Below, one piece after another: positions 2,395 to 34,806 of a stretch of 34,896 bases of DNA. The notes under the pieces are model-generated. The model saw only the letters and a program-made list of their open reading frames with translations. It searched no databases and was not told the origin of the DNA. Source of the DNA: Candidatus Zhuqueibacterota bacterium (GTDB taxonomy: Bacteria > Electryoneota > RPQS01); the NCBI GenBank assembly GCA_003818605.1, contig RPQS01000040.1, positions 1 through 34,896 of the forward strand, given 5' to 3'. A program made the position numbers and the translations under genes. How positions within the stretch are numbered: the stretch's first letter is position 1; the number at the start of each line of letters is the position of its first letter.

Positions 2395-5300
2395 TCATTT
2401 AATCAAATGCAGTTTGCGCACGGCATGGTAATCCCCGCTCGTCATGCGCGCAAAATAGACTCCCGAACCGACGCGATTCGCGTTCCATGATACGCGATGC
2501 GTTCCGGCTTTTCGGTAATCATCCACGAGCCGCTCCACCTCGCGTCCCATGATATCGAAGATGACAATTTGCGTTGTCCCGTCATGCGGCAAGGCGAATT
2601 CCATCGTGGCTACAGCGTTAAACGGATTCGGATACGGCGGATTCAATGCGTATTCGCGCGGCAAGTCTCGCGCATCGCCAATCGCCGACGGTCCGCGGAT
2701 TTCAAACACACCGTCGCTCGTATCGGCCAATGCCGCATTGGACAACGCCGTGACGATGAGATAGCAGTTCTGCGCCGCCGGGCCGCTCACAGTCCAAATC
2801 TCCGAAGAATCATTGACCGTTGCCGCGAACAAGGTGTCATACTCATTGACCGGCTCGCCGCGCCACAGTACCAAGCTCACGTCTCCGCCAAAGCCTTCGC
2901 CCGTCCAGCGCAGACGAATTTCCTGATCCGTTTCCAGCACTTCGCCGCCGTTCGGTGCCACCACTCGGATCTGCGGCATCACAATCCGTAGTGGTGAATC
3001 GGTTGTGTCGGTTAGTTCTGGCCGATCCCTTGCCGTAATTCTCAGAGCCACCATGTCCGCCGCCGGACCTGTCACCGTCCATAAGAAAGAATCCACCGTG
3101 ACTTGTGCCAGTGTTTCCCACGGATCGGCGCGGTCTCCCGCCGTCACTTCCACGTCCACCGCTCCGCTGTAGTTTGTACGCTGCCAGCGAATCCATTTCT
3201 GTTCGCCCACATACCACGTTTCGCCGCCGCCAAGCTGCAAGGATAGTCCGGGTTCGATGACTCGCCGCACCGGGCTGATCGCGTAAATCGCCGGATTGGC
3301 AAACGAGCTCACGCGAATCCGCAGCGAATCCGTTCCGGGTCCCACGACTGTCCAGAAATATTGCGCTTCATTGGTATTGTCGGATAGTGTCTGCCACGTC
3401 CCGTTCAGCGAGTCGCGTGATACTTCCAGCTTCACCGCGCCGCTGCCGTCCGTCCATTGCCAAGCGATGGCCAAAATATTTCCCACCGTGTCTATTCCGC
3501 TTTCGGCGGGAAGCAGGAACGTCAATGCCGGAGCATGCACCGTGAATTCAGAAGACGTGTCCGCTAATCCGGTGACTTCATCCAGAATGACGAGCGACAC
3601 GTGGTCGGATCGCGGCGGAGTAACCGTCCAATCGAAGCTTGTTGCCGTGCTGTTGCTCAGCAAGGTTTCCGCCGGCAATCCTTCGCGTAAGGCCAGCAAG
3701 CGATACGGCCCTTCCGACCATGTTGCTTGCCATTCCGTGTGAATGACATCGCCGATATCGTAATCCGTTTCGAATGTCCCGACAAATTCCAGTTCTCGAC
3801 GGAAGAAAGTCACATCGCTTTCCAGTGTGTCTGCCGCTTCCGCATAGTTCACACTCACAATCCGCAGCCGCGCATGCGACGTGGTGTCTCCGGCAATCGG
3901 CCACGTGAACTGACTGCCTTCACCTTCATAGAGTGTTGTCCACGCTCCTGAAGGATAATTCCGGTCAAGTTCCAGCCGCACGCCGCCGTCAGTCTCGTGA
4001 TTACTCCATGAGATCTGTAGATCCGATCCGATCTCATATTCGCTTTGTGCGAGCGGATTCAGAGCCAGACCCGGTCTTACCAACCGCATGTTAAAGATGG
4101 TGTCCGCCGCTCCCGGCCGCGCATCCAGCATCACTCGCACGGAAAGTGCCTCGGTCTCTTCTCCGATCGGTATCCACAGGAACTCATTGCTCGCTGTCGT
4201 GCCGAGACTTTCCCATGCAGACACCGGATAATTGCGGGAGACGGCAACGCTGACGTCACCTTCCGCATGCTGTCGTGTGAATTCAATGCTCTGCGCATGA
4301 TCCAGCACCCAGCGCACTCCATTCGCGGGTGAAGTGATTGCCAAGCGCGCCGCATACGGCCCACGAACGGCAATACTGTCGCGCGGCACTCGCTGTGCCA
4401 TGTCCTCAATCACAATCCAGGAGTTTTCCGTTTCGCGCGGCGACAACAATCCGATAGCTTCCACGCCGGTGACATTCGCGGCTAAGGTATCAGTGATGCC
4501 CGCCGCTGTGCGGAGTAGCACGCGCACTGCGCCCGTGTAGGCCGTGCGTTGCCAACTCACGTTGAACGAATCCCCCGTCCACAATTCCTGATTGGAAATC
4601 GGTGCGGTAATGTGCAATGCCGCCGCCCGAATGCTAAAAGTTCCCGATTCCGCCGTCCATGTGCTTTTCACCGAAGACGTAATGCGAATTCTTGCGCTCT
4701 CCGTTTCGCTTCCGTTTACCGTCCATAAAAACGAATCCGCATCTACATTGACGGCCAGCGTTTGCCACGAACCTCCGGGATAACTGCGATTGATCGTTAC
4801 GTGCACACCTGCCGGATGATCTTCTCGTGTCCAACGGATTGGCAATACGCTTCCCAGCGGAACAGTTTCACCACCGATGGGATTCGCCAATAGGAGCTGC
4901 GGCAAGGCCAGCACGAAATCATCCGACTGCGCGCTGATGCTGGGACTCTGCACGCTGCGCACCATGATTCTGGCTTGTTCGGTGGGCGGTTCCGTCGGTA
5001 TCCATGTATAGGAGTCCCCCGCGACATTCGCGGCGATCAGTTCCGAAAAACTTGCTCCCCCGTTGCGCGATAGATAGAGATTGACCGGACCTTCCACCGC
5101 AATGCGCGTCCACGAAAGTACCGCCGGGAATCCGATGATGATGCGTGCTCGTCCCAGATCTCCGAAGAACAATGACGGTACCAGAATCTGGAAATTGCCC
5201 GCCATGGTATCGCCTAAGGAGGCGTCTACCGTGGAAACAATCCGCAGCCGTGCGTTATTCGTGCCCGGTTCGGTTACCGTCCAGTTGTAGAAGGTATCGC

Positions 5301-8300
5301 TGACCGATGAAGTCAGAGTCGTCCAGGCGCCGCCCGGATAGCTGCGGCAAATGTCCACTTTCACAGGATCGTTTACGATCAGACGCCGCCACGTAAGGCT
5401 CAGATTTCTCCCGGCAATCGCGTTATGTCCCGCGGATGGTGTAGCCAAAATGAGTTCCGGCGCGGCCAGAGAGAACAATCCGGATTGCGCTTCCAGAGGA
5501 ATTCCCGCCGAACTGCGCACAGTAATGCGCGCATTGCCCGATGCTGACCCGCTCGCTGTCCAATGAATGGAATCGCCCGCCACTCCGGATCGTAAAAGCT
5601 CCAACGGCGCGCCGGGTGAACGTTCCAATAAAACGTCCACCGGAGAACTGAATGACGTGCGCGTCCATATCACAGTCATGCTTCGTCCGAGCGCCTGCAC
5701 ATATCCCGCTGCGGGCAGTGTGACATTCAGACTCGGAACCAGAATCGCGCAGTTGAACGAGGTCATGCTCGAAATCCAAGCCACGTCCACGGAGGTAATC
5801 CGCAGCCGCGCGATATTCGTGACCGGGCCGGTGACGTTCCACAAAATCGAATCGCCGTCCGCTATGCCGATTTCTTCCCACGGTCCGCCTGTGCCCTGAC
5901 GCGAGAGTTCCACGCGCACGGTTCCGGCGGTAAATCTCCGCGACCATTTCAGCGTCACCGTTTCCCCTGCGTAAAATGTATCCGCCGCCGAGGGCATCAC
6001 ATAAACAAATTGCGGCTGACCGATGCGCACCGCACCATCCGTCGTGTCGCCCATCATCGGATTGGTCGTCGCCAGCACGCGAATGCGTGCCGTTTCCGAT
6101 GCTGCGCCCGAGGCCGTCCATGTATAGCTATTGCCGCCCGCGTTTGATGCCAGCGTTTCCCATGATCCCGACGGCCAATTCCGTTTGATGTAAATGTTCA
6201 CTCCCGGAGCAAGACCCACGGAACTCCAAGCGATCTGTACGGGCAAACCTAACGCAATCGAGTCTCCCGCAACCGGTGTGAGCAGGTGCAGCGATTGGTG
6301 CGCGATCAGAAAATCCACATCGCTTACGTCGCTGATACTCGAATTGGTAACAAGCTGAACGCGCAGTCTGGAGTGAAGTCCCACTGCTCCCGTAACCGTC
6401 CAGCGCATGGTATCCGCCGATGTTCCGCCGTTGAGTACTTCCCACGCGCCGTCCGGATAATTCCGGTTCAAATCAATTCGCACCGGGCCGGTCACTCCCG
6501 CTCGCATCCAGCGGAATGTGTAAGCCTGTCCGATAATCAGCGTGTCGCCGTTGTTCGGCCAGAGCACGGCCAGTCCGGGATCCATGATCGAGAAATCGTT
6601 TGAAGTATCGCCGAAGACCGGCTGACTCTCATACACAATCCGCAGGCGCGCTTGTTCCGTGGTCGGCTGTGTAACCGTCCATGAGTAATTGTTGCCGGTC
6701 TGTCCGCCGACAATCGTTTCCCATGTTCCGCTCGGATAAGCGCGATCCAGTTCCAACCGCACGCTGCCCGCAAGTCCGCTCCGCGTCCATGCGACCAAGT
6801 AAGTGCTGCCGGCCGCCCAATGCTCGCCGCCCGCCGGCGAGGTCAACACCAACGACGGCTGGAAGATCGTGAAATTGGCGACGGATGTATCTCCGACGGA
6901 CGGATTGCTGATCAGATAGACTTTTATCCGCGCCGTTGTGCTGGCCGCACCGGACGCGTTCCAAACCAGAGAGTCGGTCGTGGTCGTTCCGAGAACTTCC
7001 CACGATCCTGCCGGGTAGCTTCGGTTCAGATCCACGCGCACTTCTCCGTCCGCTTGGAACCGAGTCCACTTAATCGTATACGGGAAACCTGCGTTTAAAG
7101 TTTCGCCGCCGTTGGGTGTGATGAGGGCTATCGGCGCGCTGATGATCGTAAAGTTGGCGTTTGAAGTGTCGCCGCGTGTGCTGGTCGTAGTTGAGACTAC
7201 CCGTATCCGCGCGTTCGTGGCGGAACCCGATACCGTCCATACATAGCCGTTGCCCGAAACCGAAGAAGCGATTGTCTCCCACGATCCCGACGGATAATTT
7301 CTCTTCAAGTCCACACGTACGTTTTCACTGACGCCCGCTCTTTGCCATTGAATCGTCTGCGAGCTGCCCGCCAGCCACGTCTCGCCACCGTTGGGATAGA
7401 TCATTGTCAGCGACGGCGCGGCAATCGCAAATCCGGTTTCCGTCGTATCGCCTACAAATGCTTCCGCCGTCAGGAAAACACGCAAGCGGGCATTGGCCGA
7501 AAGGGCTCCGGATACGCTCCAACTGTAAGTGCTCGCTGTAACCGTGCTGGTCAAAGTCTCCCAGCTTCCTGCGGGATAATTGCGGTTGAGTTGCACCGTC
7601 ACATTGCCTGTGGCATTGGTTCGCGTGAAAGTAACGGAACTGGTCGAACCCGTATAAACCGTTTCGCCGCTGTTGTGACTCGTTAGTGCCAGAGCCTTTG
7701 CGACGAACGAGAAGTTCGCCGCTGAAACGTCGTTGATCGTTTCATCTGCCGTCAATTGAATCTTTATCCGGCATGTGCTGGAAGCAGCACCCACTGCCGT
7801 CCACCGGAAAGTGTCCACCGTAACGCCGGTCGTCAATGTTTCCCAACCACCGGATGGATAATTCCGGTTCAGCAGTACGCTCACGCCGCCCGTTGCCAGT
7901 GTTCGTGTCCAACGCACGGTCAGCGGCCCGCCCAGCGTGTAGCTTTCTCCGCCGTTCGGAGCCGAGAGCGTCAACGCGGGCTGCACGATACTGAAGTTCG
8001 CGTTCGATTCGTCCGCAATGGCCGGATTGCTGTTCAAACTCACCCGCACTCGTGCCAAAGTTGTGGCCGGACCTGTAACCGTCCAGCTCATGCTGTTGCT
8101 GGTTTCCGTCGTAGACAAAGTATCCCAACTCCCCGACGGATAATTGCGATTCAAAACCACCGTTACCGGCCCGGTTGCATTGGATCGTGTCCAGGTAATC
8201 GTTGTTGCGCTGCCGATGCCCAGTGAAATTCCGCCGTTGGGCGCCGTCACGGTCAGCGATGCGCTAATTAAACTGAAATTCGCGTTCGAGGAATCGCGCG

Positions 8301-11300
8301 CTGACGGCGCGGAGTTCAGGAATACACGCACGCGGCAAGCCGTGGATGCCGATCCTGTCGGTGTCCAACTTACGCTCGTACCCGTAACGGTGGTCGAAAT
8401 GTTTTCCCACGTCCCGCTCGGATAAGCGCGATTCACCTGCACGGTGGCTTCGCCATCCGCATTGTTGCGCGCAAACGTGATCGTCTGCGCTTCGCCGATC
8501 ACCCAGGCTTCCCCGCCGTTCGGCGAAGTTACGGTAATACCGGGCGCTGCAATCGTGAAATGGCTTCCGCTGGTATCGGCAACGGTGCTGTTGCTGACCA
8601 GATATATTCTCACTCGCGCCGCTGAACTTGCCGCCGCTGTCACCGTCCATTGCAGTGAATCTACCGCTACGGCACTCGCGAGAGTTTCCCATGATCCACC
8701 CGGATAGCTGCGGTTAAGCATCACCCGTACGTCGCCCGATGCAAATTGCCGCGACCAGCGAATCTTCTGCACCGAACCGATCAGCCATGTTTCGCCGCCG
8801 GCTGGAGCCAGCAAGGTCAATTGAGGTATGCCAATGCCGAAATTCGTATTGCTTGTATCGCCGACGGACGTCGCGGCGGTCAAGAAGACTCGCACGCGTG
8901 CCGTTGTCGTTGCCGAAGCGGTTACCGTCCATGCATGACTGGTGCCCGCCGCCGTTGTGGTCAACGTTTCCCACGTTCCGCCCGGATATGTGCGATTCAA
9001 TTGCACGGTCACATTGCCTTCAGCGTCGTTCCGCACCCATGTGATGTTTTGCGAAGTTCCGATTCCCCATGCCTCGCCGCCGAGAGGAGAAGTCAGTAAA
9101 AGTCCCGGAGCCGGAATTGAGAAGTTGTTATTGGAGGAGTCGCCAATTGTCGGTGTCGCCGTGAGAAACACGCGCACCCGCGCCGCCGCCGATCCCGGTC
9201 CCGTCACCGTCCAACTGTAGCTGTCCGTTGTGACCGAAGAAGACAGCGTTTCCCATGCTCCTGCGGGATAGCTGCGATTGATTTGTACGGTCGCCGCACC
9301 CGCTGCATTGTATCGCGCCCAACTGATGGTCTGTGAAGATCCCACCGCCCAACTCTCGCCGCCGTTGGGTGAACTGACAACAATGCCCGTGCCAATCACG
9401 AAATTACTGTTGGATTCGTCAAGGAGCGTGGGCAGCGTCACCGATGATACTCGTATGCGCGCCGCGTTGGAATACGGCGTGGTCACGTTCCATGCGAATG
9501 TGTCTGCCGTCACGCCGACGGCGATCGGTGACCACGTGCCGGTTGAGTATTCGCGGTTGACGTACACATTCAGTGGCCCGTCCAGATTCGTCCGTGACCA
9601 GCGAATCACATAGGGAAATCCTGCCGCCGCAACTTCTCCGCCGTTCGGTGTCGTAACCGCCAGAGTTGGAGTCAATACCGTGAAGTTCGCATCGGAAACA
9701 TCGGTGGCGGACGTGTACGAATTCGACGTCACCCGCACTCGCGCGCTCGTCGTTCCGTTCTGATCTACCGTCCACACCAAACTGTCCGCCGTCACGGTAG
9801 ATGCCAGCGTCACCCACGATCCTGAAGGATACGAGCGATTGAGTTCTACCTTCACCGAACCGCTGAGATATTGAGTCGTCCAGCGGATTCTCTGAATGCT
9901 GCCCGGAGTGAGCGATTCGCCGCCGTTGGGATAGGTGACCGCAACCGCCGGTTCCACGATATTGAAATTCGCGCTGCTCGTGTCTCCCACGCTTGCCAGA
10001 GCCTGCAGGTAAATCCGAATCCGTGCCGTGGAACTTGCCGGAGTCGTAACCGTCCACGCATAACTCGAAGAGGAAGTAGTGGTCAGCGTCGTCCAATTGC
10101 CCGAAGGATAGCTGCGGTCAATCTGTACCACCACGTTTCCGGTAGTGCCTGATAAGGTCCAGGAAATCGTCTGTGAAGAATTGACAATCCATGTTTCGCC
10201 GCCGTTCGGCGCGCTGAGGGTTAGCTGCGGCTGCGTGATTGAAAAATCGGCGTTGGAAATGTCCGTCGCCGCCGGTGTTTCCACCGAAGTGATTCGCACG
10301 CGCGCATGCGTTGTTGTCGGATTCGTGACTGTCCATGTAAAGCTGCCGTCGTTGGATGTGGACGAAGTCAGCGATTCCCACGATCCTCCCGGATAATCCC
10401 GGTTCAATTCAATAGCCACGTTTCCGCCCAGGCCGCCCGTCGCCCATGTGATGTTCTGCGACCCCCCCGCGATCCACGATTCGCCGCCGTTGGGAGTCTG
10501 CACAGCCACACTGGGTGTTCCCGTAGATGTCTGCCACATGCCGCGTCCGTGTGTGGCCGCGCGCAGCATTCCTGTCGTCGGATGCAGCGCGATGTCGTCC
10601 ACGACTACGTTCGGCATGCCGTTGGAATAATCCGACCACGAACTCCCGCCGTTCGTAGTAGCATAGACGCCGAGATCCGTCGCGACATACAGTTTGTTCG
10701 GATCGTTCGTATCATACACGATCGAGTTGCACGGCATGTCCGGCACGCCCGTCGAAACGTTCGTCCACGATGTCCCGCCGTTCGTGCTCTTCCAGATATG
10801 TCCCGTGCCGTATCCGGAAACCGTCACCATCACCGTATTGGGGTCGGTCGGATGCACGGCTACGCGCGTGATATAGCGATAGGGAAGACCCGAATAGCAC
10901 GACGTCCAGTTCGTGCCGCCGTTGGTTGTCTTCCACACTTGCCCGTTGTTTTCGTATCCGACGTAGATCACTTGCGAATTGGACGGAGCAATCGCAATCG
11001 TACTGATATATTGAGTGCTCAGCGCGGAGGAGATCGCCGACCAGTTCGACCCGCCGTTCGTGGTCTTGTACACCATCGTCGTGCCGGTATACAGCACGGT
11101 CGCGTTGGACGGATCCATCACGCGCGGCGTGACCCACGCGCCCACGCCGGAAATTCCGCTCTGAATGGCATAGAAGGACGAACCGCCGTTGGTGGATTTG
11201 TAGTGCGAACCGCGCTGCGTTCCCGCATAGATGATGTTGGAGTTTGTGTGATCCACGTTGCAGTATGCGCCATCGCCGCCCAGCACAGCGCTCCACGTCG

Positions 11301-12822
11301 TGCTGCCCGTATACTTGTTTGTGCCGTTGTCCTGTGTTCCGCCGTAAGCCGTGTTGCCGTTCAGTTGGTCGTTGCACATCGCGTAGAACTGATACGTGGC
11401 CAGTCCGCTGTTCAAATCCGTCCACGTGTCGCCGCCGTTCGTGGATTTGTACAATCCGCCGTCCGTTCCTGCGATGATCGTATTCGGATCTCCGGGCTTG
11501 AAGGCCAATGCGTGGTGATCCGCATGCGCATACAGCGAGTGTCCGGGAGGATAGTTCCAGTACGTTTTCTGCGACCAGTTCACGCCGCCGTTGGTGGACT
11601 TGTACAAGTCCAATCCGGAGGAATAAACGATGGACGAATTCGTGGGATGGACTTCGCACACGATATTGTACCATCCCTGCCCAGAGTACATATTGGGTGT
11701 TGAGGCCTGCAGCGTCCAGCTTCCGCCCGCATTGGTCGTGCGATAGATTCCTAAAAGCCCCGCGCCCGCCGAAATGGTTTGTGAAATACCGACGTACAGC
11801 GTCTGTTCGCTGCTTTGCGAAATCGTCAGCGCCATCCGCCCCATACTTGTAGCGGAGGGCAATCCGCTCGATCTCAGCGTCCACGTTGCGCCGCCGTCTT
11901 CGGACTTGTACACTCCATTGCTCGAACCGCCCCATGGATAACCAATCGCGGCATACAGCACATTCGCGGAATCGGGATGGATGATCAGGTCTTTTGTGTC
12001 CCCGCTCAAATATCGCGTCCAACTCGAACCGCCGTCCGTGGATTTGTACACGCCGCCGCCCCCGCTCCAGATATTGGTTGCGCACCACAGAATCTGCGAA
12101 TTGGTGGGATGAACGATCAGTTTGTTGATCGCCCGTCCTTGCGATTGCGTCCAAGACATGCCCGTCGTGTTCCACGTGCTGCCCGCATCGGTGGATTTTA
12201 AAATCCCCGCGCCGAGCACTGCGTCTACGTTGTAAGCCCCTTCGCCCGTGCCGATATAAACCGTATTGAGATTGCTGGGATCAAGCGCCACCGAACCGAT
12301 GGCCAACGAGGGAAGATCGTCTGTCAAAGGCAGCCAGCTCGTTCCGCCGTTGGTGGTTTTCCACAATCCGCCGGAAGCCGCGCCGACGTAAATAATATTC
12401 GTATTGGTGGGATGCCATGCGATTGTGAGCATGCGGCCCGCGATGTTGTTCGGCCCCATAGCCGTCCAGTTCTCGTCAAGCGTCCGGTCGCGATGGTGGC
12501 TGCTCCGCTTGGTTTCCCAAGCCTGCATCCGCGCGCCGATGGGAATGTCGCCGCTCGGAAACGCGCGCTGGCCGTAGAACCATTCCATGCGGTTAAACGG
12601 CTTCCAACCCGTCCCTTTTCCCGGGCTGACTAACGGGTCGTAGTGCGTCCGAAACAGTGAATCCATTTGCGCAAACGTGTTGATGGATTCCACGGCAACG
12701 TCTTCTGCGCGCAACGTGTTGCGTAGCGGAAGCAGGCTTGTTGCGAGGACGCACACCATAAGAGCGGCCCGAACAAACGGAGTAAGTCCATGGGAGAGCG
12801 TAAGCTTGGAAGGGGTACACAT
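2395..12822 (-). CDS. Giant T9SS-sorted surface protein: BNR/sortilin-like propeller plus 28 Ig-like repeats
   Basis: The 3475-residue protein begins with a signal peptide (hydrophobic AALMVCVLATSLLPL, likely cleaved near LRA-ED at residue 39). Residues about 118-765 carry thirteen blade motifs of the K(S/T)TNGGxxW type, as in BNR/sortilin/Ycf48-like propellers; two seven-bladed propellers would fit. Residues 777-3380 are 28 tandem units of about 93 residues, each opening with PNGGE(S/T)W and containing a V(Q/L)LNRxYPxGxWETL strand pair and an ARVRV strand. This resembles the Kre9/KNH-type (Ser-Thr-rich, PF10342-like) beta-sandwich. The last 90 residues are a T9SS type A sorting domain (YPNPFNAVATMEF, IVIFDIMGREVERL, GSGVYFARM, ending LHLIK). 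The start has AAGAGGTG at 12833-12840, 10 bases upstream. The predicted role is a secreted or surface-anchored stalked protein with a binding head; the ligand is unknown. No catalytic motif was seen. Confidence 0.9.
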   Translation of the reverse strand: MCTPSKLTLSHGLTPFVRAALMVCVLATSLLPLRNTLRAEDVAVESINTFAQMDSLFRTHYDPLVSPGKGTGWKPFNRMEWFYGQRAFPSGDIPIGARMQAWETKRSSHHRDRTLDENWTAMGPNNIAGRMLTIAWHPTNTNIIYVGAASGGLWKTTNGGTSWLPLTDDLPSLAIGSVALDPSNLNTVYIGTGEGAYNVDAVLGAGILKSTDAGSTWNTTGMSWTQSQGRAINKLIVHPTNSQILWCATNIWSGGGGVYKSTDGGSSWTRYLSGDTKDLIIHPDSANVLYAAIGYPWGGSSNGVYKSEDGGATWTLRSSGLPSATSMGRMALTISQSSEQTLYVGISQTISAGAGLLGIYRTTNAGGSWTLQASTPNMYSGQGWYNIVCEVHPTNSSIVYSSGLDLYKSTNGGVNWSQKTYWNYPPGHSLYAHADHHALAFKPGDPNTIIAGTDGGLYKSTNGGDTWTDLNSGLATYQFYAMCNDQLNGNTAYGGTQDNGTNKYTGSTTWSAVLGGDGAYCNVDHTNSNIIYAGTQRGSHYKSTNGGSSFYAIQSGISGVGAWVTPRVMDPSNATVLYTGTTMVYKTTNGGSNWSAISSALSTQYISTIAIAPSNSQVIYVGYENNGQVWKTTNGGTNWTSCYSGLPYRYITRVAVHPTDPNTVMVTVSGYGTGHIWKSTNGGTSWTNVSTGVPDMPCNSIVYDTNDPNKLYVATDLGVYATTNGGSSWSDYSNGMPNVVVDDIALHPTTGMLRAATHGRGMWQTSTGTPSVAVQTPNGGESWIAGGSQNITWATGGLGGNVAIELNRDYPGGSWESLTSSTSNDGSFTWTVTNPTTTHARVRITSVETPAATDISNADFSITQPQLTLSAPNGGETWIVNSSQTISWTLSGTTGNVVVQIDRSYPSGNWTTLTTTSSSSYAWTVTTPASSTARIRIYLQALASVGDTSSANFNIVEPAVAVTYPNGGESLTPGSIQRIRWTTQYLSGSVKVELNRSYPSGSWVTLASTVTADSLVWTVDQNGTTSARVRVTSNSYTSATDVSDANFTVLTPTLAVTTPNGGEVAAAGFPYVIRWSRTNLDGPLNVYVNREYSTGTWSPIAVGVTADTFAWNVTTPYSNAARIRVSSVTLPTLLDESNSNFVIGTGIVVSSPNGGESWAVGSSQTISWARYNAAGAATVQINRSYPAGAWETLSSSVTTDSYSWTVTGPGSAAARVRVFLTATPTIGDSSNNNFSIPAPGLLLTSPLGGEAWGIGTSQNITWVRNDAEGNVTVQLNRTYPGGTWETLTTTAAGTSHAWTVTASATTTARVRVFLTAATSVGDTSNTNFGIGIPQLTLLAPAGGETWLIGSVQKIRWSRQFASGDVRVMLNRSYPGGSWETLASAVAVDSLQWTVTAAASSAARVRIYLVSNSTVADTSGSHFTIAAPGITVTSPNGGEAWVIGEAQTITFARNNADGEATVQVNRAYPSGTWENISTTVTGTSVSWTPTGSASTACRVRVFLNSAPSARDSSNANFSLISASLTVTAPNGGISLGIGSATTITWTRSNATGPVTVVLNRNYPSGSWDTLSTTETSNSMSWTVTGPATTLARVRVSLNSNPAIADESNANFSIVQPALTLSAPNGGESYTLGGPLTVRWTRTLATGGVSVLLNRNYPSGGWETLTTGVTVDTFRWTAVGAASSTCRIKIQLTADETINDVSAANFSFVAKALALTSHNSGETVYTGSTSSVTFTRTNATGNVTVQLNRNYPAGSWETLTSTVTASTYSWSVSGALSANARLRVFLTAEAFVGDTTETGFAIAAPSLTMIYPNGGETWLAGSSQTIQWQRAGVSENVRVDLKRNYPSGSWETIASSVSGNGYVWTVSGSATNARIRVVSTTTSTRGDTSNANFTIISAPIALITPNGGETLNAGFPYTIKWTRFQADGEVRVDLNRSYPAGSWEVLGTTTTDSLVWNASGAASTTARIKVYLISNPSVGDTSVANFTIFQPSLVLTSPAGGEHWAAGSTYLVAWTRSGLAGSVRLELDRAYPSGTWETIVGGQTGNNYSWTVTQPTTEQARLRIVYESQPVFGDTSNDFSIMDPGLAVLWPNNGDTLIIGQAYTFRWMRAGVTGPVRIDLNRNYPDGAWEVLNGGTSADTMRWTVTGAVGLHSRLRVQLVTNSSISDVSDVDFLIAHQSLHLLTPVAGDSIALGLPVQIAWSSVGLAPGVNIYIKRNWPSGSWETLASNAGGNSYTWTASGAASETARIRVLATTNPMMGDTTDGAVRIGQPQFVYVMPSAADTFYAGETVTLKWSRRFTAGTVRVELSRQGTGGPWEEIGIADGDSILWNVTGPVTNIARLRITSVDVAWISSMTSFNCAILVPSLNVTLPAAGYVQALGRSMTVIWTRTSFSSPVDVLLERSPGAPLELLRSGVAGDSIHWTASGSASGNARITVRSSAGIPLEAQSGLFSLAAPELILATPSAGHNAIAGRNLSLTWRRLIVNDPVKVDICRSYPGGAWTTLTSSVSDTFYNWTVTEPGTNNARLRIVSTVDASLGDTMAGNFQILVPSLFFGDLGRARIIIGFPAVLSWTRIAVEGPVNLYLSRNGGASFSELIAANVAGDSYTWIPTEPPTEQARIMVRSVQSPSISAQSDDFVLALPQLLLANPIGGETVPLGSVLPIRWTREDHPAGVHVTINRSYPGGSWQTLAVNVDADSFLWTVNGSETESARIRITSSVKSTWTAESGTFSIRAAALHITAPISNQELWTGDSFNVSWQRTAYTGAVRVLLRTAAGITDTLAANVTGVEAIGLLSPRETENSWIVIEDMAQRVPRDSIAVRGPYAARLAITSPANGVRWVLDHAQSIEFTRQHAEGDVSVAVSRNYPVSAWESLGTTASNEFLWIPIGEETEALSVRVMLDARPGAADTIFNMRLVRPGLALNPLAQSEYEIGSDLQISWSNHETDGGVRLELDRNYPSGAWTTLYEGEGSQFTWPIAGDTTSHARLRIVSVNYAEAADTLESDVTFFRRELEFVGTFETDYDIGDVIHTEWQATWSEGPYRLLALREGLPAETLLSNSTATSFDWTVTPPRSDHVSLVILDEVTGLADTSSEFTVHAPALTFLLPAESGIDTVGNILAIAWQWTDGSGAVKLEVSRDSLNGTWQTLSDNTNEAQYFWTVVGPGTDSLRIRVSSFANPAIYAISPVRRVIEPGLSLQLGGGETWYVGEQKWIRWQRTNYSGAVDVEVTAGDRADPWETLAQVTVDSFLWTVTGPAADMVALRITARDRPELTDTTDSPLRIVMPQIRVVAPNGGEVLETDQEIRLRWTGEGFGGDVSLVLWRGEPVNEYDTLFAATVNDSSEIWTVSGPAAQNCYLIVTALSNAALADTSDGVFEIRGPSAIGDARDLPREYALNPPYPNPFNAVATMEFALPHDGTTQIVIFDIMGREVERLVDDYRKAGTHRVSWNANRVGSGVYFARMTSGDYHAVRKLHLIK
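2683..10494 (-). repeat. 28 tandem Ig-like coding repeats (about 279 bp each)
   Basis: The in-frame array encodes residues 777-3380 of the giant protein. I counted 28 units by their opening PNGG-type motif, the NRxYPxGxW segment and the ARVRV-type strand. Units 1-15 stay close to consensus (PNGGESW, LNRNYPSGSWETL). From about unit 16 the motifs decay (PVAGDSI, PAAGYVQ, LGRARII, PISNQEL, TFETDYD), and the last two recover GGGETW and PNGGEVL. No two neighbouring units look nearly identical at the DNA level, so the amplification is not recent. Confidence 0.85.
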
Positions 12823-16189: not shown

Positions 16190-16219
16190 CGCCGAGCGGG
16201 ATCTGTGATCCCGCTGGAA
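16190..16219. repeat. Hairpin-family repeat, variant GGGATC/GATCCC
   Basis: Flank CGCCG, then arm AGCGGGATC (16195-16203), loop TGT, arm GATCCCGCT (16207-16215), then GGAA. The flanks match those of the copies near 33411, 33801 and 34771, while the stem differs on both sides and still pairs perfectly. Confidence 0.65.
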
Positions 16220-16265: not shown

Positions 16266-16297
16266 TTCCGCCGTGGCGGGTGTGTCACCCGCCCGGC
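16266..16297. repeat. Hairpin-family repeat, variant GGCGGGTG/CACCCGCC
   Basis: Flank TTCCGCCGT, arm GGCGGGTG (16275-16282), loop TGT, arm CACCCGCC (16286-16293), then CGGC. It differs from the copy at 17421-17452 by one stem base (C-G here, T-G wobble there). It lies just past the stop of the lipoprotein gene ending at 16308 on the minus strand, so it may serve as its 3' structure. Confidence 0.65.
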
Positions 16298-17171: not shown

Positions 17172-17548
17172 GATGTTGGATTCTCCGGGGAGTAAAAATC
17201 GGGTGTTTTCGCAGCGGGATTTATACCCTATGGTATATCGGGACAGGAACACAATTTAGACACGGGTTGCCGGTCGGGGTTTATCGGGATTATCTACTGA
17301 ACATCCGGGCCAATTAACTTGCATTCTACTTGTAAAAGCGTAAATTCTGTACCGTGATGGATAATCCGCCCATCTATTAGATGTAAAACACCCCTAAAAT
17401 CTTCCATACCCTGTTCTCTTGTCCGCCGTGGTGGGTGTGTCACCCGCCCGGCGCGTAAACACCGCAAGGTTCGCCGAGGAGGATCACTAAACCCTCCGGC
17501 AATCTTTGGTTCTTTCTCGTTTCTCATTTCTGATTTCCCATTTTCTTC
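17172..17548. other. Intergenic gap between divergent genes, with two repeats
   Basis: This 377-base gap separates the orphan lipoprotein (-) from the glycosyltransferase cluster (+). It contains a hairpin-family repeat at 17421-17452, followed directly by a second dispersed motif at 17453-17480. Promoters for both directions should lie here, but no clear hexamers were picked out. The last 40 bases before 17549 are a pyrimidine-rich run (TTTCTCGTTTCTCATTTC) with no ribosome site. Confidence 0.55.
17421..17480. repeat. Hairpin-family repeat plus second dispersed motif
   Basis: 17421-17452 has arms GGTGGGTG (17430-17437) and CACCCGCC (17441-17448) around TGT, a wobble variant of the copy at 16266-16297. 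17453-17480 contains AAACACCGCAAGGT, then one base, then CGCCGAGG; the same arrangement recurs at 33542-33570. Confidence 0.65.
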
Positions 17549-22798: not shown

Positions 22799-22828
22799 AA
22801 AACGGGCGCGATGTCTCGCGCCCGTTTT
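22799..22828. terminator. Rho-independent terminator between convergent genes
   Basis: 13-bp perfect stem: AAAACGGGCGCGA (22799-22811) and TCGCGCCCGTTTT (22816-22828) with a 4-base TGTC loop. The A and T runs at the two ends let it work in both directions: it ends the glycan cluster (stop 22780) and faces the histidine kinase gene (stop 22944). A second, imperfect hairpin (GGGCGCG, TGTCT, CGCGTGCCC) follows at about 22839-22860. Confidence 0.85.
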
Positions 22829-22943
22829 GCTCTCCGCCGGGGCGCGTGTCTCGCGTGCCCGCAATCCGCGTTTTTATCGCATGCGATCCAACAAAAAATC
22901 CTGCCTCACGGCAAGATTCCTGAAAAAAAACGGCGGTCAGTCG

Positions 22944-26614: not shown

Positions 26615-26651
26615 TGACCGACATCTCCGCCGAGCCGGGGCTCCCGACCCG

Positions 26652-26683
26652 GTCCGCCTTTGGCGAGATCTCGCTTCGCGGAC
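26652..26683. repeat. GAGATCTCG palindromic repeat, full copy
   Basis: Outer arms GTCCGC (26652-26657) and GCGGAC (26678-26683) enclose the inner palindrome GCGAGATCTCGC. Related copies lie at 33472-33505, 33580-33613 and 34836-34866. Just upstream, at about 26624-26655, CTCCGCCGAG and a CCGGG/CCCGG stem resemble the hairpin-family repeats. All of this lies in the gap between lpoB and the next lipoprotein gene. Confidence 0.7.
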
Positions 26684-33338: not shown

Positions 33339-33937
33339 ACAAAAACTGGCGGCGGTCTCCGACCGTCGTCTTTTGCGATCGTTGCGCGGGGTGTCCTTAC
33401 CCCGCGCATTCTTCCGCCGAGCGTGGGTCGCTGACCCCGACGGAATCTTGCTGTCCCTCCGTTTACGGTCCGTCCGCTTTGCGGACGAGATCTCGTTCCA
33501 CGAGGGGATGAAAGGGGGGCGTTTTTATCCGCCTCCTCCGCAACGCAAACACCGCAAGGTGCGCCGAGGTATGCGTCCCCGTCCGTCGTAGACGAGATCT
33601 CGCTTCGCGGACGTGCCCGGAATCTTCCGCCGAGGTGGGCGCCCTCGCCCACCCGAAAGATCAGAAATCATACGTCGGCGAACATCGTTTCGTATATTAT
33701 TTTCCGGCCGCACGAGGCGTGCGGCTCCGCGTGCCCGGAATCTTCCGCCGCGGCGGCAGGCGTCTGCATTCTTCGCCTGCCCCACAAGGCGAAGACATCG
33801 CCGAGCGTGGGTCGCTGACCCCGCCGGAATCCGCCGATAAAAACTAACGGCAACATCCGGAAACGGACATTCGTCCGCCGTTGTCGCTCTCCTGAGCGGC
33901 AATGGCATTCCATTCGCCAATTAATCGCGTAACGACT
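33339..33937. repeat. 599-base intergenic cluster of hairpin and palindromic repeats
   Basis: No gene is supported here. In order: stem GGCGGTC/GACCGTC (33351-33367); TGCGCGGGG/CCCCGCGCA (33383-33408); hairpin-family copy TTCCGCCGAG with GGGTC-GCT-GACCC (33411-33449); GAGATCTCG element (33472-33505); G-run half copy (33501-33520); AAACACCGCAAGGT motif (33542-33570); full GAGATCTCG palindrome with CGTCCG/CGGACG arms (33580-33613); GGTGGGCG/CGCCCACC hairpin (33624-33659); GCCGCAC/GTGCGGC (33707-33725); GGCAGGCG/CGCCTGCC (33755-33781); and a second GGGTC-GCT-GACCC copy (33801-33830). Overlapping open frames on both strands encode only repeat-derived peptides. Confidence 0.75.
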
Positions 33938-34663
33938 ATGAAACTGTATAAATATCGACGTATTGACGACTATACTATTGCCTCGATTCGCGATAGCACA
34001 TTGTGGTTTTCGTCGCCAGCAGATTTTAATGACCCATACGATTGCAGATTAAGTATGGATTCCTATGGTACGAAAGAAGAATGGGAGAACTTTCTCAGAG
34101 AAGGCTTTATTCCTGATCCAATAATTAGAGATTTAATTGATAGGCGGCAGATACACAATGATCTTGATCTTGCTATACATAAATTACAGGCAATAATGGA
34201 AGAGGTTAGGCATAGTCTATGTGTGTGTTGTTTTAGCCAATTGAACAATTCTATCCCAATGTGGTCCCACTACGCTGACGGACATAAGGGAATCTGCCTC
34301 GAATTCGATTCAGAAAAAGATACCAAACTACAAAACATATTTGATGTGAATTACTGCGAATCGTTTCCTTCTATCACAATTCGTAATACTAAAGAGGAAA
34401 TAATGAAAAAATTAGTAACCAGCAAGGCTAAGGCATGGAATTACGAAAGTGAATGCAGAATATTTGCACGCGGAGAAAAAGGGCTGACGAAAGTAGATAG
34501 AAGAAGCATGACAGGTGTTATCTTTGGTTGTTCGTGTCCACTGCAAGACAAAGAAAAAGTAATAAACGAGCTTAGAGCATATGTACCAGTACCAAAGCTT
34601 TATAAAGCAAATACAAAAATAGATAAATATGAAGTAGTGATAGTCGAATGTAGTGAAAAGTGA
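33938..34663 (+). CDS. DUF2971 family protein
   Basis: The protein has 241 residues when started at ATG 33938, where the family begins (MKLYKYRRIDDYTIASI); an in-frame ATG at 33902 would add 12 unrelated residues. DUF2971 marks are the N-terminal LYKYR, STLWFSSPADFNDPYDCRLS, the central CVCCFSQLNNSIPMWSHYADGHKG followed by ICLEF, and KAWNYESECRIF. The biochemical function is unknown, and the family is common in variable genome regions. The gene is visibly richer in A+T than its neighbours (many AAA, AAT and ATA codons), and repeat clusters lie on both sides, which suggests acquisition from elsewhere. No partner gene is visible in the window. A stem-loop follows the stop. Confidence 0.85.
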   Translation: MKLYKYRRIDDYTIASIRDSTLWFSSPADFNDPYDCRLSMDSYGTKEEWENFLREGFIPDPIIRDLIDRRQIHNDLDLAIHKLQAIMEEVRHSLCVCCFSQLNNSIPMWSHYADGHKGICLEFDSEKDTKLQNIFDVNYCESFPSITIRNTKEEIMKKLVTSKAKAWNYESECRIFARGEKGLTKVDRRSMTGVIFGCSCPLQDKEKVINELRAYVPVPKLYKANTKIDKYEVVIVECSEK

Positions 34664-34721: not shown

Positions 34722-34806
34722 CGCGAGGGGTAGGGACACCCCTCGCGGCGACAAAAACAATCGCAAATTTCCGCCGAGCGTGGGTCGCTGACCCCGCCGG
34801 AATTCG
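34722..34806. repeat. Two more hairpin-family repeats
   Basis: 34722-34749: arms CGCGAGGGG and CCCCTCGCG around TAGGGACACC. This resembles the element at 33383-33408 read in the opposite direction, whose loop TGTCCTTA becomes TAAGGACA. 34771-34806: TTCCGCCGAG, then GGGTC-GCT-GACCC, then CGCCGGAATT, matching the copies at 33411 and 33801. Confidence 0.65.

Follow-up and report, generated by a model that had tools for sequence, protein, structure and literature searches.

Dispersed hairpins with a non-canonical C/G foot as probable REP elements linked to a clade of RAYT transposases

Introduction

Short hairpins that share their flanks and differ in their stems are scattered along the window, a stretch of 34,896 nucleotides that makes up the whole of contig C85 of the genome G000 (a MAG of 3.23 Mb in 253 contigs). 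Their stems change on both sides and still pair, which raises the question of what these elements are and what keeps them folded. The first-pass annotation, made from the sequence of the window, proposed REP/BIME-type elements or, alternatively, protein-bound or processed RNAs. Dispersed copies, covariation and RAYT genes bracketed by these hairpins all support the former reading, and we consider it highly probable from genome comparison that the hairpins are REP elements, i.e., short mobile DNA that is non-autonomous and relies for its copying on RAYTs, the HuH/tyrosine single-strand transposases.

Hairpin elements in the window

At least 15 hairpin elements of about 11 stem kinds were identified in the window, twice the number counted previously. 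All seven copies named in the first-pass annotation were recovered (the elements below that start at 16190, 16266, 17422, 33412, 33625, 33796 and 34769), and at least eight others had been overlooked (17470, 22833, 26626, 33384, 33700 on the minus strand, 33745, 33875, and 34722 on the minus strand). The previously described GGGTC/GACCC stem is indeed present in three copies, where it is extended to GCG(T)GGGTC/GACCC-CGC, a longer stem in which a single T bulges out. Seven hairpin elements, representing six kinds, lie in the gap at 33339–33937 (33384, 33412, 33625, 33700 on the minus strand, 33745, 33796 and 33875), together with two copies of a different repeat. The features of the window are as follows.

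16190–16217, plus strand: REP-like hairpin; foot CGCCGA, stem GCGGGATC-TGT-GATCCCGC, which recurs in the genome at C113:1131 and C178:6861
16266–16296, plus strand: REP-like hairpin; foot CCGCCGT, stem GGCGGGTG-TGT-CACCCGCC; folding z -5.3
17422–17451, plus strand: REP-like hairpin; foot CCGCCGT, stem GGTGGGTG-TGT-CACCCGCC with one G-T pair; identical stem found twice in G011 (other family, same order)
17470–17499, plus strand: decayed REP-like element of the GGAGGGTC family; foot CGCCGA
22833–22865, plus strand: REP-like hairpin, intergenic; foot CCGCCGG, stem GGCGCGTG-TCT-CGCGTGCC
26626–26656, plus strand: REP-like hairpin; foot CCGCCGA, stem GCCGGGGC/GACCCGGT; family member at C109:2749
33384–33407, plus strand: probable REP, GCGCGGGGTG-TCCT-TACCCCGCGC; the family brackets the RAYT G000:C151, inverted on its two sides, and has 51 genome copies
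33412–33446, plus strand: probable REP; foot TTCCGCCGA, stem GCG(T)GGGTC-GCT-GACCCCG, partner CGGAAT; the family flanks the RAYT G001:C103
33484–33505, plus strand: second dispersed repeat, divergent copy (GACGAGATCTCG...)
33591–33612, plus strand: GACGAGATCTCGCTTCGCGGAC repeat; 53 genome copies
33625–33658, plus strand: REP-like hairpin; foot TTCCGCCGA, stem GGTGGGCG-CCCT-CGCCCACC
33700–33731, minus strand: REP-like hairpin; stem GCCGCACG-CCT-CGTGCGGC, also at G000 C100:24951
33745–33783, plus strand: REP-like hairpin of the GCGGC-foot kind; stem GGCAGGCG, 11-nt loop, CGCCTGCC; resembles hairpins beside the RAYTs of loci L066, L069 and L072
33796–33830, plus strand: probable REP; foot CGCCGA, stem GCG(T)GGGTC-GCT-GACCCCGC
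33875–33906, plus strand: probable REP, CGCCGTTGTCGCTC-TCCT-GAGCGGCAATGGC; the family flanks the RAYT G001:C53 and has 16 copies in G000 and 47 in G001
33938–34663, plus strand: DUF2971 gene, with its ATG at 33938, downstream of the REP cluster; a neighbour outside the system
34722–34747, minus strand: probable REP of the G000:C151 RAYT family with a compensated base-pair change (GCGAGGGG...CCCCTCGC)
34769–34804, plus strand: probable REP; foot TTCCGCCGA, stem GCG(T)GGGTC-GCT-GACCCCGC, followed by CGGAATT

Abundance and covariation of the stems

Elements were collected by their flanks only, with the stem left unspecified, using the pattern TCCGCCGN{14,44}CGGAAT (i.e., TCCGCCG...CGGAAT), and the reversed pattern served as a control. 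There are 118 matches in G000 versus four for the control, and a consensus search within the window gave three matches versus 0.10 expected. Among the 100 interiors listed, 57 pair at six or more of eight positions, compared to an average of 5.1 and at most 14 in 2000 shuffles; thus, the stems pair better than shuffled sequence. The proposed covariation within constant flanks was borne out as well. Across 39 distinct elements, 95% of the inner pairs (eight per element) are intact, seven of the eight pair positions show two-sided change, and the covariation score of 0.492 exceeds both the shuffled score (0.174 +/- 0.016; 0 of 500 shuffles) and that obtained with slid partners (at most 0.096). 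Constancy of the outer helix is uninformative here, because the pattern itself partly selected it. When single elements were folded as DNA, most had z of about -4 to -5, and the bulged GCG(T)GGGTC copies had -1.3 and -1.9.

Certain stems recur among the matches listed (GGCAGATC nine times, GCAGGGTC seven times and GGAGGGTC five times), and the GGCAGATC and GGTGGGTG stems are also found in G011, which belongs to another family of the order. Since stems recur and are common to this other family, much of the paired change lies between hairpin families. The fold is also maintained inside a family: the GCGCGGGGTGTCCTTACCCCGCGC family has 51 copies in G000, and in 12 of its 14 copies with two changes one change exactly compensates the other, four different kinds of compensation being represented. 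Counted as distinct haplotypes within one family, four out of six two-change haplotypes are exactly compensated (chance 1.3% each, p 5e-7), and there are eight distinct one-change haplotypes.

Such paired changes might be purely mutational, as template switching at quasi-palindromes copies one arm onto the other and is known in other bacteria. The excess of compensated over uncompensated doubles within one family is what arm correction would also yield. However, uncompensated single changes are common, as the eight one-change haplotypes indicate, and this process leaves unexplained why the foot is constant, why the elements are dispersed and flank RAYT genes, and why stems are shared across families of the order. 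We therefore judge it improbable as the whole explanation; it could coexist with REP mobility as a source of compensated variants.

RAYT genes and their flanking hairpins

The search for a REP-associated tyrosine transposase that the first-pass annotation had suggested returned nine matches to NF047646 in G000 (E<=1e-8), and the hairpins flank RAYT genes. Y1_Tnp/RAYT genes occur throughout the order. RAYTs of the DDV class are about 160 aa long and carry two nearly invariant motifs, DHLH and Y[IM]HxNPVRRG (HuH plus Y...NP). One of them, encoded on contig C103 of the sister species G001, scores 101.9 bits against NF047646, for which the curated cut-off is 80. The best solved relative is E. coli TnpAREP (PDB 4er8; phmmer 1e-5), and no plasmid relative close to the DDV RAYT was found, the best having 31% identity.

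Most of the 21 tabulated DDV RAYTs have the same stem on both sides, typically inverted, and a few have a hairpin on one side only; at L021, the two flanks carry two different stems. Several families seen in the window can be matched to a cognate gene. The G000:C151 RAYT is bracketed by GCGCGGGGTG and is the cognate of the window elements 33384 and 34722, and the G001:C53 RAYT is bracketed by CGCCGTTGTCGCTC and corresponds to element 33875. For the main family of the window, the cognate is the G001:C103 RAYT, which has AGCGGGGGTCGCTGACCCCGC on its upstream side and AGCAGTGGTCGCTGACCCTGC copies in inverted orientation downstream. No RAYT for this main family (GCAGGGTC/GCGTGGGTC) was found in G000, an assembly that is 93% complete, and it is present in the sister species G001. 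Another RAYT, G000:C137, is bracketed by GCCGGGTT.

In both species, a Y1_Tnp domain was also found within the reading frame for a large protein, predicted to be DNA methylase-like (L025 at G000:C108 and L026 at G001:C66), an apparent in-frame transposase insertion or fusion.

Each genome has several hairpin families, each with its own RAYT, except for GCAGGGTC/GCGTGGGTC in G000 and the L021 locus. The nearest RAYT relative has a closer stem than expected by chance (0.25 versus 0.39, p 0.0003), and the foot likewise tracks RAYT kinship (p 0.008). When five stem groups were placed on the RAYT tree, four changes were required versus 8.4 for shuffled groups. A Mantel test over all stem and RAYT distances gave no significant correlation (r 0.12, p 0.11), which is a caution, and also the result expected where only near relatives keep similar stems.

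Genomic placement

Random open reading frames cover 92% of the sequence, which makes overlap with them uninformative, and placement was therefore assessed with greedy gene calls. By these calls, the window copies are all intergenic, as had been stated previously. Genome-wide, strict elements are strongly depleted from gene calls (18 out of 37 overlap a call versus 89% background coverage, p about 2e-9), and several of the 18 probably lie in spurious ORFs, such as 33525–33908 on the minus strand. Fourteen of the 19 intergenic elements sit between tandem genes, and elements occur on both strands inside a single gap.

This placement bears on the view that the hairpins work as RNA, for example by stabilising 3' ends, marking processing sites or terminating transcription, in which case the covariation would reflect selection for the RNA fold. 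Depletion from genes and the preference for gaps between tandem genes are compatible with it, and secondary effects of this sort are known for REPs (PMC3733652). On the other hand, both strands are used in one gap, and identical stems recur at unconnected loci and beside transposase genes. The terminator reading was dropped because the hairpins are not followed by a T-run. Families tied to RAYT branches also argue against a per-site RNA function, which would not produce them. No Rfam match at the gathering score was obtained for the window and three RAYT loci. We thus regard an RNA function as the primary explanation to be quite unlikely; the protein-bound or processed RNA of the first-pass annotation is not needed to account for the hairpins, and such a role is possible as a secondary effect.

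Less plausible still is that the hairpins are ends or remnants of IS200/IS605 elements or integron attC sites: the former are hairpins with a 5' guide too and the latter likewise keep fold over sequence, but the flanked enzymes have Y...NP rather than Y...Q and exceed the RAYT model cut-off, RAYTs inside one genome are diverged single copies, and the conserved flank is GCCG/CGG rather than the attC boxes RYYYAAC/GTTRRRY, whose absence led us to set the attC reading aside.

Returning to REP elements, their copies can apparently outlast the enzyme or be independent of it, since the flank pattern remains above control in G007, where no Y1 RAYT was detected (20 versus 3), and in G003, which has no DDV RAYT (47 versus 2). 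Five copies of the CCGCCGAGCCGGGTT..AACCCGGCCGGAAT type were observed in G018, a genome from another family of the same phylum where no DDV RAYT was detected; these may be orphans or the result of transfer.

Foot sequence and RAYT residues

RAYT-associated REPs have been described with a GT[AG]G foot, apart from the atypical structures of subclass 2.6 and the CnGA foot of class 3 (PMC6006769). The canonical unpaired GT[AG]G foot was not found in the DDV-class hairpins. Their foot is GCCG plus a variable base (A 42, C 25, T 16 and G 15; n=98) or GCGGC, usually within TTCCGCCG...CGGAA; the guide tetranucleotide could be placed in more than one way, since the foot can also pair with the CGG located 3' of the stem. 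In the same genomes, other RAYTs (L024 and L032) are accompanied by GTAG feet.

In E. coli, the residues W94, Q95, E100, H101 and R104 have been reported as GTAG contacts (PMC6006769, PMC8266576). We aligned the RAYTs to E. coli W94–R104 and scored the foot by a separate rule on hairpins located within 220 nt of the RAYT, the C/G foot class being defined post hoc, after data inspection. Among 26 rows of DD[V] RAYTs, 21 have a C/G foot (21 of the 23 called), one has GTRG, one has YTAG and three have none. The two exceptions are L020, a tie scored as GTRG whose near hairpin is C/G, and L109, which has YTAG and falls outside the clade. In comparison, 14 out of 15 [DE]H..R RAYTs have GT[AG]G (14 of 14 called) and one has none, while the nine WSE-like rows comprise six with [CT]TAG (six of seven called), one with GTRG and two with none. 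The difference between the DD[V] and [DE]H..R foot classes has a Fisher p of 4e-9, which ignores kinship and overstates the association between foot and residues, since the DD[V] RAYTs are one clade in one order, with few independent switches. When the frozen rule was applied to a later set of 20 loci, five of seven predictions were correct (one a tie), including two of two for DDV; at L141, one of the two misses, inspection revealed GTAG alongside the nearest hairpin.

The WSE-like RAYTs L022, L070, L075, L085 and L089 are flanked by hairpins whose foot is CTAG or TTAG, which may be another non-canonical tag.

The residues were mapped on 4er8 as W94 Q95 ... D100 V101 ... P104. Of the residues reported to contact GTAG in E. 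coli, the DDV class keeps W and mostly differs at the others: Q95 is mostly R, position 100 is D, 101 is mostly V and 104 is mostly P; this would be expected given a different tag. In the RAYT tree, 25 of the 26 DDV rows form one clade. The DDV RAYTs (28 at 180–274 bits) are all confined to the 13-genome order; across the remaining 26 genomes of the phylum, no score is above 112 bits. Judging from these comparisons, it appears that in the order studied a C/G foot replaces GT[AG]G and that the matching RAYT clade mostly has V/P at positions 101/104.

A tentative extension, which we hold to be somewhat less probable than its opposite, is a switchable guide code in which a few residues of W94–R104 would set the foot, with [DE]H..R specifying GT[AG]G, D-D-V-x-x-P specifying GCCG/GCGGC and W-S-E specifying [CT]TAG. 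If true, the hairpins of this phylum would form compatibility classes predictable from the RAYT protein.

Comparison with known REP systems

The closest point of reference is the GTAG-tagged REP/BIME and RAYT/TnpAREP systems of E. coli, Pseudomonas and Stenotrophomonas (TnpAY1 subclasses 2.2, 2.4, 2.5, 2.7 and 2.8). Common features are short dispersed intergenic hairpins and their clusters, inverted copies flanking RAYTs, a distinct stem for each RAYT and several families per genome. A REP in frame inside a RAYT gene has been described for subclass 2.4; here, locus L072 has its own REP (834–860) in frame inside the RAYT gene (ORF 545–1150), between the HuH and W/Y motifs, and has two similar neighbours. 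In contrast to the GTAG-tagged systems, the hairpins reported here have a GCCG/GCGGC foot and usually, in addition, a bulged C/G-rich helix at the base (TTCCG/CGGAA or GCGG/CCGC), and their RAYTs mostly have V/P at E. coli H101/R104.

TnpAY1 class 3 from Planctomycetes and Acidobacteria (CnGA foot; PMC6006769) is alike in its non-GTAG foot and high copy number, and the CCGA of the main family of the window fits CnGA. However, the motifs of class 3 enzymes are Y----Q and NHVH, whereas those studied here have Y...NP and DHLH, and the base after GCCG varies. Membership in class 3 was ruled out by the Y...NP enzyme, although the CCGA foot of one sub-family fits. The CGTC-tagged REPs (PMC3733652) are similar in having a non-GTAG tag, stems of 8–9 bp, loops of 4–5 nt and many families. 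Their stems begin with two A/T positions, their tail is CCA and they lack an associated transposase, whereas the elements described here have a stem that starts with G-C, a 3' flank CGGAAT and flanked RAYTs; both the element alignment and the RAYT association thus place them outside this group. Finally, subclass 2.6 from Bacteroidetes, which has atypical structures, also combines Y..NP RAYTs with non-GTAG hairpins, but its NH[LIV]H and WQ motifs differ from the DHLH and mostly WR found here, a separation made at the level of enzyme motifs.

On this sequence evidence, the hairpins and their enzymes represent a REP/RAYT system with a non-canonical foot, set apart from the published classes by their descriptions, and an earlier description of this foot is possible.

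Proposed mechanism and implications

By analogy with the family, the RAYT would recognise the folded single strand (the lagging-strand template or similar) via the foot and the stem, with the foot acting as a guide that chooses the nick beside the hairpin, and would insert copies into single-stranded DNA elsewhere. Unpaired variants would go uncopied and decay, so that the surviving stems would differ by paired changes; as the RAYT would read the folded strand by foot and stem, the stem would drift only in pairs. New stems would arise with the divergence of RAYT lineages, and quasi-palindrome template switching may provide compensated variants. RNA roles after insertion may exist and are not required by this scheme.

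Published RAYT-linked REPs almost all have GT[AG]G, and the evolution of tag specificity was therefore not open to comparison before. Within one phylum, there are now sister enzyme classes with GTAG, C/G and [CT]TAG feet, and more than 10 stems matched to RAYT branches. Together they may serve as a naturally occurring substitution series with which to tell the residues that read the foot from those that read the stem, in transposases small enough to re-target. The intergenic clutter of such genomes would be accounted for as mobile DNA rather than regulatory RNA.

Other repeats in the window

The second dispersed repeat, GACGAGATCTCGCTTCGCGGAC, occurs in the window at 33484, 33591, 34844 and 26662, and its 53 copies in G000 were counted at three or fewer mismatches, versus 0 for the control. 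One copy downstream of the L024 RAYT seemingly interrupts the loop of a hairpin of the GTAG type, which suggests a nested element. A strong terminator-like hairpin, AAAACGGGCGCGA-TGTC-TCGCGCCCGTTTT, lies at 22800–22832, immediately before the REP-like element at 22833. The minus strand of the window encodes at 2395–12822 a repeat protein of 3475 aa with internal DNA repeats of about 282 bp.
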